64,000 bases of DNA from Alicyclobacillus acidiphilus NBRC 100859 (lineage in GTDB: Bacteria; Bacillota; Bacilli; Alicyclobacillales; Alicyclobacillaceae): positions 1-64,000 of the forward strand of contig NZ_BCQI01000002.1 in NCBI RefSeq assembly GCF_001544355.1, read 5' to 3'. Under the pieces are notes generated by a model. The model ran no database searches, had not been told where the DNA came from, and worked only from the letters and a program-made list of their open reading frames with translations. Positions 42,015-49,525 of this stretch are shown piece after piece (position 1 is the stretch's first letter; each line of letters opens with the position of its first letter). The position numbers and the translations under genes were made by a program.

Positions 42015-43190
42015 ATGCTAGAGGAATTTGACCTCGTGATTGATAGAGTGAACACAGCGACGTCCAAGTGGGACACGCTCGCGACGCGATTTGGCAGAGA
42101 CGACGTGCTGCCGATGTGGGTGGCGGATATGGACTTTGCGTCGCCGCGAGCGGTTCAGGACGCTTTGCTGCGGCGAGTGCAGCACGGCGTGTACGGATAC
42201 ACCGTGAAGTCGCAGGCGTACACCGACAGTATCGTATCCTGGATGGGACGTCGTCACGGTTGGGCCATCGACGGTTCGTGGATAGTCCCTGCGCCCGGTG
42301 TCGTACCCGCCTTGGCTGTGATTGTCCAAGCGTTCACGCAGCCAGGGGACGGCGTGTTGATTCAACCGCCCGTGTACCACCCGTTCAAGCGCACCATCGA
42401 GAGCTGGGGACGCCGGGTCGTGGAAAATCCGCTCGTCGAACGCGACGGCCGATATGAAGTGGATTTTGACGATTTGGAACAGAAGGCGAGACAGGCGAAG
42501 GTGATGTTCCTGTGTTCGCCGCATAATCCGGTGGGCCGTGTTTGGCACGAAGACGAACTTCGGCGCATCGGCGAGATTTGTCTGCGCCATCAGGTGCTGG
42601 TCGTCGCCGATGAAATTCACGCCGATCTCGTCTTTGCTCCGCACCGCCACATCCCGTTTGCCTCCTTGAGCGAACGGTTTGCCGCCAATTCGATCACGTG
42701 CGCCGCTCCGAGCAAGACGTTCAACCTCGCCGGCCTCAACACGGCCTACGTTGTGGCGCCCAATGCCGCCATCCAAGCGAGGTACGCTGCCATGTCCGCA
42801 AAGGCGTCGATGGCGGAACTGAACGTCTTCGGATCGGAGGCGATGATCGCGGCGTACAACGAAGGGGAGGCCTGGCTGGACGCGCTGTTGCTGTACCTCA
42901 AAGAAAATTTCAACTACCTGCAGTCCTTTATCGAAACGGAAATTCCGGCGGTCAAGGTGTTTCCTTTGGAAGGCACGTATTTGGCCTGGCTGGACTTCCG
43001 CGGTTTGGAACTTGGCGTCCAGGAACTGGATCACTTGCTGGTCCACGAGGCGAGAGTCGGTCTCAACGAAGGACATTTGTTTGGCCGGGAAGGCGAAGGT
43101 TTCCAACGCATGAATATCGCTTGCCCAAGAAGTCTTTTGGCCGAGGGCTTGACTCGTTTGCGGGACGCCATCGTTCGCCCATCCGAGTGA
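42015..43190 (+). CDS. patB: PatB/MalY-type cystathionine beta-lyase
   Basis: A 391-residue PLP enzyme. Signatures are WDTLATRFGRDDVLPMWVAD, MDFASPRAVQDAL, CSPHNPVGRVW, DEIHADLVF and the PLP Lys in APSKTFNLAGLNTAYV (about residue 236). It cleaves cystathionine and related thioethers and can have aminotransferase activity. GGGGGGA lies about 10 bp before ATG 42015. It probably forms a separate unit from the split gerE downstream. Confidence 0.9.
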   Translation: MLEEFDLVIDRVNTATSKWDTLATRFGRDDVLPMWVADMDFASPRAVQDALLRRVQHGVYGYTVKSQAYTDSIVSWMGRRHGWAIDGSWIVPAPGVVPALAVIVQAFTQPGDGVLIQPPVYHPFKRTIESWGRRVVENPLVERDGRYEVDFDDLEQKARQAKVMFLCSPHNPVGRVWHEDELRRIGEICLRHQVLVVADEIHADLVFAPHRHIPFASLSERFAANSITCAAPSKTFNLAGLNTAYVVAPNAAIQARYAAMSAKASMAELNVFGSEAMIAAYNEGEAWLDALLLYLKENFNYLQSFIETEIPAVKVFPLEGTYLAWLDFRGLELGVQELDHLLVHEARVGLNEGHLFGREGEGFQRMNIACPRSLLAEGLTRLRDAIVRPSE

Positions 43191-43199
43191 AACGACGGA

Positions 43200-43227
43200 A
43201 CGCTCCATGCGGCGGAGTCATACTATA
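43200..43227 (+). promoter_or_regulatory. Sigma-K-type promoter of gerE
   Basis: AC at 43200-43201 and CATACTATA at 43219-43227, 17 bp apart, match the sigma-K consensus AC-N16/17-CATANNNTA at every fixed base. The start would be about 45 bp before the gerE ATG. gerE is a sigma-K-dependent mother-cell gene in B. subtilis. Confidence 0.75.
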
Positions 43228-43278
43228 CCCTGACTGTATCCCGCTCTTGTATTGAAAGCGACAAGGAGGGATAAGGGG

Positions 43279-43424
43279 ATGTCTTCTGCGAAGGACGCGC
43301 GCATGAAATCGCTGCTCACGAACCGGGAGAGGGAAGTCTTTGAACTTCTCGTACAGGATAAGACGACCAAAGAGATTGCCGGATTGTTGTTCGTCAGCGA
43401 AAAAACTGTCCGGAACCACATCTC
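43279..43424 (+). CDS. gerE: gerE, 5' half (interrupted)
   Basis: Forty-nine codons of the spore-coat gene regulator GerE, a LuxR-type DNA-binding protein of the mother cell. LLTNREREVFELLVQDKTTK and the recognition helix VSEKTVRNHIS are nearly identical to B. subtilis GerE from memory. Homology stops exactly after HIS. In the present DNA the frame runs on to a stop at 43482 with unrelated residues (67 aa product), lacking the last helix needed for binding and dimerisation. ATG 43279 follows AAGGAGGGATAAGGGG. The remainder is at 47075-47156. Confidence 0.93.
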
Positions 43425-43440
43425 TAAAGAGATATGGCTA
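43411..43440 (+). other. Left attachment junction (attL) of the gerE element
   Basis: gerE sequence CCACATCTC ends at 43424 and element sequence TAAAGAG begins. CTC (43422-43424) is shared with the right junction. The deduced empty site, CACATCTCAAATGTG, is a short dyad (CACAT/ATGTG) around the core, as expected for a serine-recombinase attB. Confidence 0.8.
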
Positions 43441-43478
43441 CTGCGCGAACCGCAGGCTGGAGAAATGGAGGTCATTGG

Positions 43479-43973
43479 ATGAGCGACAAACTGCGGCTCG
43501 AAGTTGCCAAGTTGTTGCATGACAACGCCAAACTTTCGTTGGAGTCGATTGCGAAAATGCTGGGCGAGCCATTGGAGACGATCGCGCAGACGGTAACGGA
43601 ACTGGAAGAGGAAAAGGTCATTTTGCGCTATTCGGCAGTCGTCAACTGGGACAAGCTCGAGACGAACCAGGTGACGGCCGTGATCGACGTGCGGGTCCTG
43701 CCGCAGCGCGAAGTCGGTTTTGACGCGATCGCCAAAAAAATCTACCGTTTCGACGAAGTGAAATCCGTTTCACTGATGTCCGGCGGGTTCGATTTGCAGG
43801 TGATCGTCGAGGGCCGCGACATTCGCGAAGTTTCCCGCTTCGTTTCGGAAAAACTGGCGACCATTGAAAATGTCACCGGCACCACGACGCACTTTTTGCT
43901 GAAAACCTACAAATCCGACGGCGTGATCTTCGACGACACGGACGGGGAAAGGCGACTGATGATTACGCCATGA
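43479..43973 (+). CDS. Lrp/AsnC-family regulator (AlaR-like)
   Basis: A 164-residue regulator. The N-terminal helix-turn-helix is SLESIAKMLGEPLETIAQTV, and the C-terminal AsnC ligand domain has VTAVIDVRVLP and VKSVSLMSGGFDLQVIVEG. ATG 43479 follows GGAGG, only 54 bp inside the element, and no clear promoter lies within the element before it. The stop overlaps the aminotransferase start (ATGA). The same pair, alaR-alaT, occurs in B. subtilis at another locus and controls alanine transamination. Confidence 0.9.
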   Translation: MSDKLRLEVAKLLHDNAKLSLESIAKMLGEPLETIAQTVTELEEEKVILRYSAVVNWDKLETNQVTAVIDVRVLPQREVGFDAIAKKIYRFDEVKSVSLMSGGFDLQVIVEGRDIREVSRFVSEKLATIENVTGTTTHFLLKTYKSDGVIFDDTDGERRLMITP

Positions 43974-45136
43974 GTTCCTTGTATGACCGTCTGTCGCCAG
44001 TCGTGGTGAATTTGCCTCCTTCGGGCATCCGCAGATTTTTCGATCTCGCCAATCAGATGCAGGACGTCATCTCGCTTGGCGTCGGCGAACCTGATTTCGT
44101 TACGCCGTGGCACATCCGCGAAGCGTGCATGTATTCGCTGGAGCAAGGCTATACCACGTACACGTCGAATCGCGGCTTGCCAGAGCTGTGTGCCGAGATT
44201 GCGAACTATTTGACCAAGTTCAACCTGGCATACGATCCAGCAAGCGAAATCATGGTCACGGTGGGCGGCAGCGAAGCCATTGACATCGCCTTGCGCATGT
44301 TGGTTTGCGCCGGGGACGAGGTATTGATACCTGCGCCAACTTATGTATCGTATCGGCCGTGTGCCCTGCTCGCTGGCGCCGTGCCCATCGATGTGCCGAC
44401 CCACGCGGAGGATCAGTTTCGCTTGACCGCGGATGCGCTCGAGGGCGCGATCACGCCGAACAGCAAGGTACTCGTCCTGTGTTTCCCGAACAATCCAACC
44501 GGGGCCACGATGTCGAAGGAAGATCTGGAACGCATTGCGAACGTCGCGATCAAACACGACTTATTTGTGGTCTCCGACGAGATCTATGCCGAATTGACGT
44601 ACGACGGAAAACACACGAGTATCGCGTCTCTCGAAGGCATGAAAGAACGCACCGTGGTCATCAGCGGCATGTCGAAAGCCTTCGCCATGACGGGATGGCG
44701 AATCGGTTACGTGGCGGCTCCGGCTCCGTTGTTGTCAGCGATGCTGAAGATCCACCAGTACACCATCATGTGCGCTTCGAATATGGCGCAGCGCGCCGCA
44801 TTGGAGGCCTTGCGCAACGGCGAGTCGGAGATGGAGCGCATGGTCGAAAGCTACGATCGCCGCCGCCGGCTCATCGTCCAGGGCTTCAACGAGATTGGAC
44901 TGACGTGCCATGAGCCAAAAGGCGCGTTCTACGCGTTTCCCGACATTCGCTCCTCCGGTTTGTCGTCGGAAGCGTTCGCGGAACGCCTCCTGCGCGAGCA
45001 AGGCGTCGCCGTCGTGCCAGGCAACGTGTTCGGCGAGACGGGCGAAGGCTTTGTTCGCTGTTCATACGCGACGTCGGTGGAATTGATTGAACAAGCGTTG
45101 GAGCGCATTCGGACGTTTCTGGAATCGCTGAGGTGA
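43970..45136 (+). CDS. Class I/II aminotransferase (AlaT/PatA-like)
   Basis: A 388-residue PLP enzyme. Motifs are ISLGVGEPDF near the N terminus, MVTVGGSEAIDIAL, CFPNNPTGATM, VSDEIYAELTYDGK and the PLP Lys in SGMSKAFAMTGWRIGYV (about residue 234). Arg in VRCSYAT binds the carboxylate. Substrate could be alanine, aromatic amino acids or N-acetyl-LL-diaminopimelate. It is translationally coupled to the Lrp gene and ends at the terminator at 45183. Confidence 0.92.
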   Translation: MSSLYDRLSPVVVNLPPSGIRRFFDLANQMQDVISLGVGEPDFVTPWHIREACMYSLEQGYTTYTSNRGLPELCAEIANYLTKFNLAYDPASEIMVTVGGSEAIDIALRMLVCAGDEVLIPAPTYVSYRPCALLAGAVPIDVPTHAEDQFRLTADALEGAITPNSKVLVLCFPNNPTGATMSKEDLERIANVAIKHDLFVVSDEIYAELTYDGKHTSIASLEGMKERTVVISGMSKAFAMTGWRIGYVAAPAPLLSAMLKIHQYTIMCASNMAQRAALEALRNGESEMERMVESYDRRRRLIVQGFNEIGLTCHEPKGAFYAFPDIRSSGLSSEAFAERLLREQGVAVVPGNVFGETGEGFVRCSYATSVELIEQALERIRTFLESLR

Positions 45137-45182
45137 TGGATGCCGGGCATGGCCTGAAGACATTGACCCTAAGACACTTGTA

Positions 45183-45206
45183 CGCGCCTTCCGAGGCGCG
45201 TTTTTT
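45183..45206 (+). terminator. Terminator of the regulator-aminotransferase operon
   Basis: CGCGCCT/AGGCGCG with a TCCG loop is followed by TTTTTTGTTT. It separates the cargo operon from the recombinase unit. Confidence 0.9.
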
Positions 45207-45246
45207 GTTTGCGGCCGTCGATCGATGCGAATGGCATGTCAGGCAA

Positions 45247-45273
45247 ACGGGAAAAGCCGTCCTGCATAGGCTC
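45247..45273 (+). promoter_or_regulatory. Possible mother-cell sigma (E/K) promoter of the recombinase unit
   Basis: AC (45247-45248) and CATAGGCTC (45265-45273) are 16 bp apart. This matches the sigma-K consensus except for the last A, and CATANNNT also fits sigma-E -10 boxes. No sigma-A promoter is visible between the terminator and the 53-residue ORF. Short motifs like this occur by chance, so this is suggestive only. Confidence 0.4.
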
Positions 45274-45293
45274 GAACGAGGGGTGTGAGGCAG

Positions 45294-45455
45294 ATGCGAC
45301 TCGAGGAGCGTCCAAGGCGCAAAATCGGCGAACGCGAACTGAAGAGCGGCGTCGTCGTGGAGTACTTCTGTGATGAGCGGGGGCCGACCGTTCAGGAATG
45401 CGTGGACCGATCCGCGGAAATCGCGGCGCAGGCACTGGCGAGCAAACTTGACTAG
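45294..45455 (+). CDS. 53-residue protein upstream of the recombinase, RDF candidate
   Basis: ATG 45294 to TAG 45455, with GGGGTG 8 bp upstream. The product starts MRLEERPRRKIGERELKSG and continues VVVEYFCDERGPTVQECVDR, ending EIAAQALASKLD: basic N terminus, acidic helical C terminus. It lies 43 bp before the serine recombinase on the same strand. Small proteins beside such recombinases can be directionality factors, as SprB (58 residues) is for SprA in SP-beta. No sequence similarity to SprB is claimed. Confidence 0.65.
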   Translation: MRLEERPRRKIGERELKSGVVVEYFCDERGPTVQECVDRSAEIAAQALASKLD

Positions 45456-45498
45456 GCGGCGAATGGTTTAGCCTTACTTCGCCCTGCGAGGTGGTGGA

Positions 45499-47082
45499 AT
45501 GCGCGCGGCTATCTACATTCGAGTGTCTACGGATCACGAGGAACAGAAACTTTCTCCGGACCATCAACTGATGACCTGCCGCGAATACATTGAGGACATT
45601 GGCTTGGAGACGGATGATCGGCTGATTTACAACGATGCGGGTTTGAGCGGAACGGAGATGGAGAATCGAACGGAGGTGCGGAGGCTTGTCGCGGACGCTC
45701 GAAACGGTCGATTCGACGCCGTTGTGTTCACCGCGATCTCTCGTTTTGCCCGCGATCTCTCCGACGCCCTGGCACTCAAAAAGCGACTGGAAACAGTCTA
45801 CGGAATTCGCATTATCAGCGTCGAAGAAGGCTACGACACGGCGGTGGACGGACGCAACAGCGAGATGATTTTCACGGTTCACGCGATGGTCGCGGCTCAC
45901 AAGAGCCACGAAATGAGCAAGGCGATTCGCCGCGGGCTTCGACAGTCCGCCGCAACGGGCAGGCACATCGGCAACGTCCCACCGTTCGGATACGTCAAGA
46001 CGGCCGGCAAGCGGCTCGTTCCAGACGAACGGACGGCGCCCATCGTCCAGGAGATCTTTCGTCTCTACCTCGCCGGGGTGGGGAGCAAGGCGATCGCGGA
46101 AGAGTTGAATCGCCGCGGTGTGCCCACCGCAAGCAAGTCGCGCGGCAAGGGCGACACATGGTGGCAGGCCAGCACCATTCAGCGAATTCTCCGCAACCCA
46201 GTGTACGCGGGCGATCTGGTGGCGAACCGTTGGCGCAACGACGTGGACATCAGGTTGTCACGCCAGCTGGACTCGAAGGTGAAACGGCAGATGATGCGCG
46301 ATCGGGACGAGTGGGTCGTCGTGCGGAACAATCATCCTGCCCTTGTCGATCGCGCCGCGTTCAACCTTGTCCAGGACACGATGGACATGAAGGCGAAGAA
46401 CAAGGGCTTGCGCAGAACCAGCAACGTGTTGTCGGGCTTGATGAAGTGCGGCGCATGCGGCGGCGCAGTCGTCGTATCGGGACGAAGCGGGCGGAACGGA
46501 CAGGCGTACAAGTATGTCGGATGCGCCGCCGTGAAGCGGATCGGCAAGCACGCTTGCGCAAATCACAGCTTGGTTCGCTACTCGGATGTTCTGGACGCCG
46601 TGTTGACGCCTCTGCGTGCCTTTGCAACCAATCCAGATACGGCGGATCGGCTCGTCGATTGGATACTGCAGTCCACGGTCGATCACGGCATCACCGAACG
46701 GCTAGCCCTGTTGCAGCGGCGATTGGAGCGAAATGAGCAGAGGCAGGAAAAGGCCCTGGCAGCCTATACGGAAGGCGGCTTCCCGCTGGACATGATCCAG
46801 AAACATCGGGCTGAATTGCTCGAAGAGAAGCGCCGCCTCCAGGACGAGATGGAACGGTTGGAACAACGACGGTTGTCGAAGGAGGCCTTGAGGAGTCAGC
46901 GTGATCGATGGATGGAGATGTTGAACGTGTTTCGCCACCTCGACGAGTACGATCCCGTCACCGCGCGGGCCGCGCTGTCGGCCGTCGTCGAATGTGTCGT
47001 TCTGACGCCGGATCGGCGCTTGCATGTGTTGTGGAAATGGTGCGCCTGCGATTGTACCTGTGTGAACGCACCTCAAATGTGA
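45499..47082 (+). CDS. Large serine recombinase
   Basis: A 527-residue site-specific recombinase. The resolvase domain starts MRAAIYIRVSTDHEEQ with nucleophile Ser10, and has FTAISRFARDLSDAL. The recombinase domain has NVPPFGYVK and WWQASTIQRILRNPVYAG. A zinc ribbon follows (MKCGACGGAVVVSG, then YVGCAAVKR and KHAC). A coiled coil at about 400-460 is rich in Glu, Arg and Leu. ATG 45499 follows GAGGTGG. The last 8 bases of the gene (QM-stop) are gerE sequence, so the C terminus differs in the excised circle, where the frame would run about 33 residues further. Confidence 0.96.
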   Translation: MRAAIYIRVSTDHEEQKLSPDHQLMTCREYIEDIGLETDDRLIYNDAGLSGTEMENRTEVRRLVADARNGRFDAVVFTAISRFARDLSDALALKKRLETVYGIRIISVEEGYDTAVDGRNSEMIFTVHAMVAAHKSHEMSKAIRRGLRQSAATGRHIGNVPPFGYVKTAGKRLVPDERTAPIVQEIFRLYLAGVGSKAIAEELNRRGVPTASKSRGKGDTWWQASTIQRILRNPVYAGDLVANRWRNDVDIRLSRQLDSKVKRQMMRDRDEWVVVRNNHPALVDRAAFNLVQDTMDMKAKNKGLRRTSNVLSGLMKCGACGGAVVVSGRSGRNGQAYKYVGCAAVKRIGKHACANHSLVRYSDVLDAVLTPLRAFATNPDTADRLVDWILQSTVDHGITERLALLQRRLERNEQRQEKALAAYTEGGFPLDMIQKHRAELLEEKRRLQDEMERLEQRRLSKEALRSQRDRWMEMLNVFRHLDEYDPVTARAALSAVVECVVLTPDRRLHVLWKWCACDCTCVNAPQM

Positions 47083-47085
47083 TGA
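47061..47085 (+). other. Right attachment junction (attR) of the gerE element
   Basis: Element sequence ends GAACGCACCTC at 47074 and gerE sequence AAATGTGATG resumes. CTC (47072-47074) is shared with attL. The deduced circle junction (attP) reads GCACCTCTAAAGAG. Confidence 0.8.
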
Positions 47086-47156
47086 AAAAGCTCAATGTGA
47101 AAGGGCGGTCACAAGCGGTTGTGGAACTGGTTCGTCTCGGTGAGTTGGTGATTTGA
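47075..47156 (+). CDS. gerE: gerE, 3' half (interrupted)
   Basis: The last 26 codons plus stop, NVMKKLNVKGRSQAVVELVR then LGELVI, match the C terminus of GerE. There is no start codon or ribosome binding site of its own in this frame. Joined to 43279-43424 it gives 228 bases: 75 residues and a stop, close to the 74 residues of B. subtilis GerE. No premature stop or frameshift is present in either half. Confidence 0.93.
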
Positions 47157-47160
47157 GATC

Positions 47161-47189
47161 GAACACCCCTGCTGCGGGTAGGGGTGTTC
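47161..47189 (+). terminator. Terminator of gerE
   Basis: GAACACCCCT (47161-47170) and AGGGGTGTTC (47180-47189) form a perfect 10-bp stem, 4 bp after the gerE stop, followed by TGCGTCTTTTC. Confidence 0.75.
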
Positions 47190-49372: not shown

Positions 49373-49446
49373 GCGGGTGTAGTTCAATGGTAGAACTCCA
49401 GCCTTCCAAGCTGGTAGCGTGGGTTCGATTCCCATCACCCGCTCCA
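49373..49446 (+). tRNA. tRNA-Gly(TCC)
   Basis: The acceptor GCGGGTG pairs with CACCCGC, with encoded CCA. Stem CCAGC/GCTGG holds loop CTTCCAA, anticodon TCC. Confidence 0.95.
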
Positions 49447-49448
49447 GT

Positions 49449-49525
49449 GTCTCAGTAGCTCAGCAGGATAGAGCAACAGCCTTCTAAGCTGTGGGTCGGG
49501 GGTTCGAATCCCTCCTGGGACGCCA
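49449..49525 (+). tRNA. tRNA-Arg(TCT)
   Basis: The acceptor GTCTCAG pairs with CTGGGAC (one T-G), with encoded CCA. Stem ACAGC/GCTGT holds loop CTTCTAA, anticodon TCT for AGA codons. It lies 2 bp after tRNA-Gly. Confidence 0.95.

Follow-up and report, generated by a model that had tools for sequence, protein, structure and literature searches.

An element that splits gerE in Alicyclobacillus acidiphilus and has relatives at the same site across its order

Results

The split gene and the element within it

We analyzed a 64,000-nucleotide (nt) stretch of Alicyclobacillus acidiphilus NBRC 100859 (contig NZ_BCQI01000002.1, hereafter the window), in which the sporulation gene gerE is cut after codon 49, between codons 49 and 50, by a 3,650-bp element. 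Joined computationally, the two halves give a GerE of 75 amino acids (aa) followed by a stop, with no internal stop and no frameshift. The element thus splits a sporulation gene whose frame its removal restores, and it encodes a site-specific recombinase of its own, as sporulation gene-intervening elements do. The features of the locus, including the left and right attachment sites (attL and attR), are as follows.

43200..43227, + strand: sigma-K-like promoter of gerE, AC-N17-CATACTATA
43279..43425, + strand: gerE 5' half, codons 1-49 (PF00196 residues 2-39 of 57, 51.3 bits)
43426..43427, + strand: AA, most likely crossover, attL, left end of the element (attL/attR comparison, dyad test)
43479..43973, + strand: Lrp/AsnC-type regulator, cargo (PF01037, 58.6 bits)
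43970..45136, + strand: class I/II aminotransferase, cargo (PF00155, 263.8 bits)
45182..45201, + strand: terminator-like hairpin after the aminotransferase gene (hairpin search, 7 in the region vs 4.4 expected from shuffles)
45243..45272, + strand: promoter-like block GCAAACG-N15-CATAGGCT before the small protein (motif comparison with other elements)
45285..45455, + strand: small protein, candidate recombination directionality factor (56 aa from GTG or 53 aa from ATG at 45294)
45499..47082, + strand: large serine recombinase, 527 aa (PF00239 96.9, PF07508 91.4 and PF13408 37.4 bits, all above cut-off)
47076..47077, + strand: AA, most likely crossover, attR, right end of the element (attL/attR comparison, dyad test)
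47076..47156, + strand: gerE 3' half, codons 50-75 and stop
47161..47189, + strand: terminator-like hairpin of gerE (hairpin search of the region)

The first-pass annotation of this DNA had reported a 3,650-bp element between open, in-frame halves, a 75-residue product, a gerE in its usual place, and a sigma-K-type promoter and terminator still in position. Length, coordinates, reading frames and translation all bear this out, as do the promoter and the hairpin, and gerE has a PatB-type C-S lyase gene upstream and a MarR-type gene followed by a glutamate racemase gene downstream. The promoter call relies on the sigma-K consensus. CATACTATA and the leader upstream of gerE are kept in the nine same-genus genomes compared, out of 14 relatives; one of the nine has CATACGATA. 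A second intact gerE, which the annotation had named as evidence that would count against a rebuilt gene, was not found in the strain's own assembly (estimated 99.96% complete), where N-terminal and C-terminal halves of gerE occur once each. Eleven other matches to PF00196 were rejected as a second gerE. Ten of them lie in frames of 152-297 residues, and the eleventh is an 88-aa short LuxR-type frame on contig C13, which aligns with GerE piecewise only (29% identity, E 0.016).

Recurrence of the split in the order

gerE was sought in 59 genomes of the order (Alicyclobacillus, Sulfoacidibacillus, Ferroacidibacillus and kin; G000 denotes the A. acidiphilus element under study and other G numbers the remaining genomes). 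It was detectable, by its C-terminal half at E <= 0.001, in 54 genomes, the other five being only 60-85% complete. Read in all 54, the gene is intact across the site in 39 (counting G045, which starts at a contig edge within gerE) and split in 15, a recurrence that argues against chance as the origin of the split. In all 14 same-genus relatives gerE is intact, providing the empty sites for which the first-pass annotation had proposed a search. Split members include Alicyclobacillus mengziensis S30H14 (G061), Sulfoacidibacillus thermotolerans Y002 (G040), Ferroacidibacillus organovorans SLC66 (G037) and several metagenome assemblies. G041 was counted as split on the basis of an element-like end preceding its gerE 3' half; its contig stops ~330 bp upstream, and no clade recombinase was found.

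A recombinase close to that of A. acidiphilus (E <= 1e-90) is present in 14 of the 59 genomes, all of them among the 15 with a split gerE, and the 13 others are 46-60% identical to it over nearly their full length. It shares a contig with the gerE 3' half in 14 of 14 genomes, at a distance of ~0.4 kb or less in 12, 3.7 kb in G040 and 24.7 kb in G035. G047 yields one extra match, a recombinase fragment on the contig bearing its gerE 5' half. G047 has the small gene and the recombinase twice, beside gerE-5' (G047:C22) and beside gerE-3' (G047:C76), on two contigs; these copies may represent two tandem elements. Where both ends were read, the elements measure 1,978 bp (G061), 3,650 bp (G000), 4,138 bp (G038), 4,378 bp (G021), 10,507 bp (G039), 10,716 bp (G040), 12,717 bp (G049), 19,579 bp (G043), 19,791 bp (G020), 29,224 bp (G035) and 33,345 bp (G018). 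Because G053 and G037 have no 5' half on the contig and the halves of G047 lie on two contigs, the cargo of these three is assigned to the element indirectly.

The 14 recombinases form one clade (support 100/99), separate in the tree from seven recombinases elsewhere in the order and from 12 on gerE-3' stretches of other Bacilli, the latter making up two groups of their own with 8 and 4 members. Within the clade's tree the A. acidiphilus recombinase groups with recombinases of another family of the order. A class-wide recombinase scan of 398 genomes gave nine matches at E <= 1e-75, all in the order; at most three candidates were scored in each genome, which makes the absence of the clade outside the order provisional.

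A class-wide gerE scan gave a match in 253 of the 398 genomes, and 18 stretches were read among the matches listed, picked for short frames or repeated copies. Twelve genomes outside the order (L133-L139, L141-L145) have a gerE-3' piece and a serine recombinase on the same stretch, with the 5' half present in 3 of the 12. Given these 12 stretches, with recombinases in two other groups, splitting of gerE looks common in Bacilli.

Upkeep of the split genes

Decaying halves in related strains were another sign that the first-pass annotation would have read against a functional split; no stop was found in the 12 five-prime and 15 three-prime halves read. Between split genes, silent changes outnumber changed codons in every pair compared: 33 to 1 for G039/G040, 18 to 1 for G038/G039, 27 to 2 for G038/G040 and 38 to 6 for G018/G020, and, in more distant pairs, 40 to 12 for G000/G043 and 40 to 8 for G000/G061. 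Random substitutions, simulated for three pairs, would alter the residue in 78-82% of changed codons. This shows that the gerE genes now split were functional for most of the time in which they diverged, but it is no proof of function in the split state, as the changes may be older than the insertions.

The crossover site

The first-pass annotation had placed the junction at a CTC shared by the two ends. This is probably one base off; the most likely crossover is the AA at the start of codon 50, and the protein is unchanged. Across the 11 elements read at both ends, attL and attR are identical in every case at offsets 0 and 1 (AA), and no other two neighboring positions show this; the single positions +3 and +6 likewise match in all 11. 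CTC was rejected, as it is not common to attL and attR in other elements (e.g., G061). The rebuilt element-end site is a dyad centered on AA, which is the best center in each of the nine elements tested (nine of the 11); 120 of 198 dyad pairs match about AA, compared to 33-61 at 12 neighboring centers. The predicted rejoined gerE junction is CACATCTCTAATGTG and the predicted circle junction GCACCTCAAAAGAG, each one base from that proposed earlier, whereas the CTC joint would read CACATCTCAAATGTG. Abe et al. (PMC5595907) predict the same AA as the cleavage point of gin, the element in gerE of Bacillus cereus.

The recombinase and its small neighbor

The recombinase contains the resolvase, recombinase and zinc-ribbon domains of large serine recombinases. 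Its last codons and stop lie across attR in gerE-3' (47076-47082), as is also the case in G043, G053, G047 and G061, so that the C-terminal tail of the protein would differ between the integrated and the circular form.

All 15 recombinase copies (14 genomes, G047 twice) are directly preceded by an open frame with a shared pattern. These frames were first picked by eye and then tested with a leave-one-out profile, from which the held-out member and its near-duplicates were removed. The small frame ranked first among element frames of at least 25 residues in 15 of 15 cases, with E <= 7e-6 in 14, and the full profile gave a best E of 1.1 against 27 control loci, of which 18 were gerE loci from other Bacilli, 7 were further recombinase loci in the order and 2 came from G041. 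The predicted fold of the protein consists of two strands and one helix, with a mean predicted local distance difference test score (pLDDT) of 88 and a predicted template modeling score (pTM) of 0.45. The 1,978-bp A. mengziensis element holds the recombinase as its only gene among non-overlapping frames of at least 90 residues, plus the small frame; if this element is excised unaided, the small protein is the sole visible candidate for a factor. We regard the small protein as a candidate recombination directionality factor.

Promoters of the excision genes

The motif CATANNNT, presumably the -10 type of sigma-E and sigma-K promoters, lies within 150 nt before the small-protein core in 11 of 15 elements, and in 8 of 12 without near-duplicates, compared to a mean of 1.3 and a maximum of 6 in 2000 shuffles. 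The G020 match falls inside a reading frame and is probably due to chance, leaving 10 of 15 and 7 of 12. The spoIVA promoter, used as a yardstick, has CATATATT in 15 same-genus genomes. The evidence for sporulation control of the excision genes, as judged from these motifs, is moderate.

Cargo genes

Only four genes longer than 50 codons lie in the A. acidiphilus element, namely those for the regulator, the aminotransferase, the small protein and the recombinase. A prophage origin was rejected, as no structural, packaging or lysis gene is among them; the PHROGs scan took in the small protein and the recombinase only, and the recombinase matches an integrase family. The element genes have a GC content (0.54-0.62) similar to that of their neighbors on either side (0.53-0.61). 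The frame of the gerE 5' half continues into the element as far as a stop at 43480-43482, which the ATG of the regulator gene overlaps, and a hairpin search of the 43190-43482 region found no terminator-like site between the PatB-type gene and gerE; read-through from upstream may thus drive transcription of the cargo.

In 9 of 14 same-genus genomes a homologous pair lies elsewhere, with 79-87% identity for the regulator and 80-83% for the aminotransferase. In the strain's own genome the next-best aminotransferase shows 48% identity, and matches in the remaining five same-genus genomes are likewise only distant. No native locus of the Lrp-aminotransferase operon was found in the own genome, where the transporter that adjoins the operon in a relative has a 39% match. 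With host-type cargo beside a recombinase that falls among those of another family, the cassette appears to have captured a host-type operon.

Other elements have different cargo. That of S. thermotolerans (G040) contains bioA, bioF and bioD, with no other bioA match in the genome at E <= 1e-80. The G049 element contains cobB, cobQ and a PduO-type gene, along with an arsenical pump, and in G037 cobQ lies upstream of gerE-3' on a contig that lacks the 5' half; in both genomes this is the sole cobQ match at E <= 1e-60. Single-copy status was checked for these two genes and the aminotransferase type. Glucuronate isomerase and mannonate dehydratase are encoded in the G043 element, KdpA, KdpB and a molybdopterin dehydrogenase in G035, asparagine synthase in G021, and a sulfocyanin-domain protein in both G038 and G039. 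A phage tape-measure protein in G020 and a relaxase and coupling protein in G018 suggest that phage-like and conjugative elements use the gerE site too.

Two adjacent tRNA genes were observed at 49373-49522, downstream of racE.

Discussion

We consider it very probable that the element is removed as part of a program, being excised at AA in the sporulating mother cell by the recombinase together with the small protein, which would rebuild gerE. The split, the intact halves, the common crossover, the recombinase, the conserved small protein and the recurrence in relatives are read directly from the sequence; we infer that excision takes place, in which cell and when, and what the small protein does. 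The element would be a site-specific integrating cassette whose recombinase acts at a single point of gerE, the AA at the start of codon 50. As long as the cell grows, gerE would stay split and silent. In sporulation, the mother cell would produce the small protein and the recombinase, probably under a sigma-E/sigma-K-type promoter, and the recombinase would join attL to attR at AA and eject the element as a circle. The rebuilt 75-codon gerE would then be transcribed from its sigma-K promoter. The forespore would retain the element, which would thereby be inherited. The first-pass annotation had likewise suggested a sporulation gene kept split and rebuilt in the mother cell, and that the element carries the parts such a system needs lends this support.

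The closest precedent is gin of B. cereus ATCC10987. GirC and the 42-residue GirX excise it from gerE starting at hour 4 of sporulation, and no excision follows mitomycin C (PMC5595907). The two elements share the gene, the codons and the predicted AA, with gin lying in gerE codons 48-50, as well as a large serine recombinase and a small factor on the element (a candidate one in A. acidiphilus), the lack of phage genes, and a gerE that is intact after removal (in A. acidiphilus, by prediction). They also differ. gin is 28.6 kb long, with recJ and three serine recombinases (girA, girB, girC), whereas the A. acidiphilus element has one recombinase in 3.65 kb. In the deletion map described for gin, GirX (42 aa) is not adjacent to girC, whereas the A. 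acidiphilus small gene is directly upstream of its recombinase, and the metabolic operon carried as cargo is unlike gin. By analogy, the A. acidiphilus element would work like gin, yet it is not gin as defined there. The first-pass annotation knew of no described case in this lineage. For the order, a search of the open-licence literature (paywalled papers and preprints being outside its coverage) likewise turned up no paper on a gerE element, but the annotation overlooked gin; with gin in the same gene at the same nucleotides, the principle of a gerE-splitting element is not new.

Several observations weigh against programmed removal. The end-site dyad of the A. acidiphilus element is the weakest of the nine, with 9 of 22 pairs. 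CATANNNT is missing before the small protein in G061, G035, G021 and G018, the promoter block of A. acidiphilus alone is not above chance (reached by 23/100 and 10/100 shuffles), and the -35 before its small protein is unlike the spoIVA -35 of the genus. The small protein is weakly supported in G021 (leave-one-out E 0.042), has no match in Pfam, NCBIfam, PHROGs or PDB sequences, and has no significant fold match among solved structures. Finally, the silent changes in the split genes may predate insertion.

One alternative is a mobile cassette that has gerE as its attachment site and is lost at a low rate in growth or under stress, without sporulation control, so that gerE is rebuilt only where the cassette is lost by chance. 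Prophage-like (G020) and conjugative (G018) relatives in the same site, a patchy presence, a recombinase that groups with those of another family of the order, and promoter evidence that is moderate are all consistent with this explanation. However, we consider it unlikely, given that split gerE genes keep their reading frames, that CATANNNT recurs before the small protein, and that gin, at the same site, responds to sporulation and not to mitomycin C (PMC5595907). Less likely still, the element may have killed gerE and never be excised, with the strain sporulating without GerE or not at all. The unobserved excision and the weak dyad would fit a dead gene, as would a recent insertion, which the intact gerE of all same-genus relatives allows; yet both halves, the promoter, the leader and the terminator are intact, the recombinase and small-protein genes are open, and the 15 split genomes read share the arrangement and show no decay. 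That the split reflects an assembly artefact or a contaminating contig is hardly credible. The draft assembly, with 165 contigs and an estimated contamination of 2.71%, counts against us here, but the element lies inside a 162-kb contig, the GC content of its genes is like that of the flanks, and other assemblies have the same arrangement, including the complete chromosome of A. mengziensis S30H14.

Heterocyst-forming cyanobacteria likewise excise DNA from a terminal cell during development, with the recombinase XisF acting on the fdxN element. XisF (NF041201) is the top-listed NCBIfam match of the A. acidiphilus recombinase, though at 120 bits, compared to a cut-off of 375, the recombinase is outside the XisF family; the fdxN element also belongs to another development and has a target other than gerE. 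Among sporulation systems, skin in sigK, SP-beta in spsM and vfbin in spoVFB likewise split a gene that a serine recombinase rebuilds in the mother cell (PMC5595907). These have other target genes and are prophages or prophage remnants, in contrast to the A. acidiphilus element, which has no phage gene. A prophage, MMB025, was reported in 2026 in sigK of Alicyclobacillus acidoterrestris, and thus offers gene-splitting integration into a late mother-cell gene under the same genus name; it is a phage genome in sigK with the proposed core TCTC, and the accessible portion of that report does not mention gerE (PMC13141910).

What is apparently new is an order-wide recombinase clade distinct from two others near gerE, a conserved small partner and a two-gene form of 2.0 kb, as well as elements that hold the only detected genomic copy of bioA, cobQ or this aminotransferase type. 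With these findings, what had been described as isolated cases of elements that split sporulation genes becomes a family across an order. On balance, we lean slightly toward a broader interpretation, in which gerE in this order is a docking site for dedicated self-removing cassettes (minimally two genes in 1,978 bp), several of which took up metabolic genes detected in single copy (bioA with bioF/bioD; cobQ with cobB and pduO; Lrp-aminotransferase), with programmed loss from a terminal cell and the split gene of a late regulator as the timer. Should excision be confirmed, the mother cell would be discarding DNA that holds single-copy vitamin and amino-acid genes, and why gerE is a preferred home would become testable. 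Loss there costs the inherited genome nothing, and the split may also shield late coat regulation from early transcription, as the gin authors proposed (PMC5595907). The 14 recombinases, 15 small partner proteins and 11 attachment-site pairs are a natural set on one target, useful for studying how a small protein reverses a serine recombinase and as a source of recombination tools.

A different arrangement was observed outside the order, where L148 (G320:C3), L146 (G364:C47), L149 (G094:C1) and L150 (G074:C1) carry one or two additional gerE-3' pieces a few kb downstream of a whole gerE. These are perhaps elements that bring a replacement 3' end and leave gerE whole.

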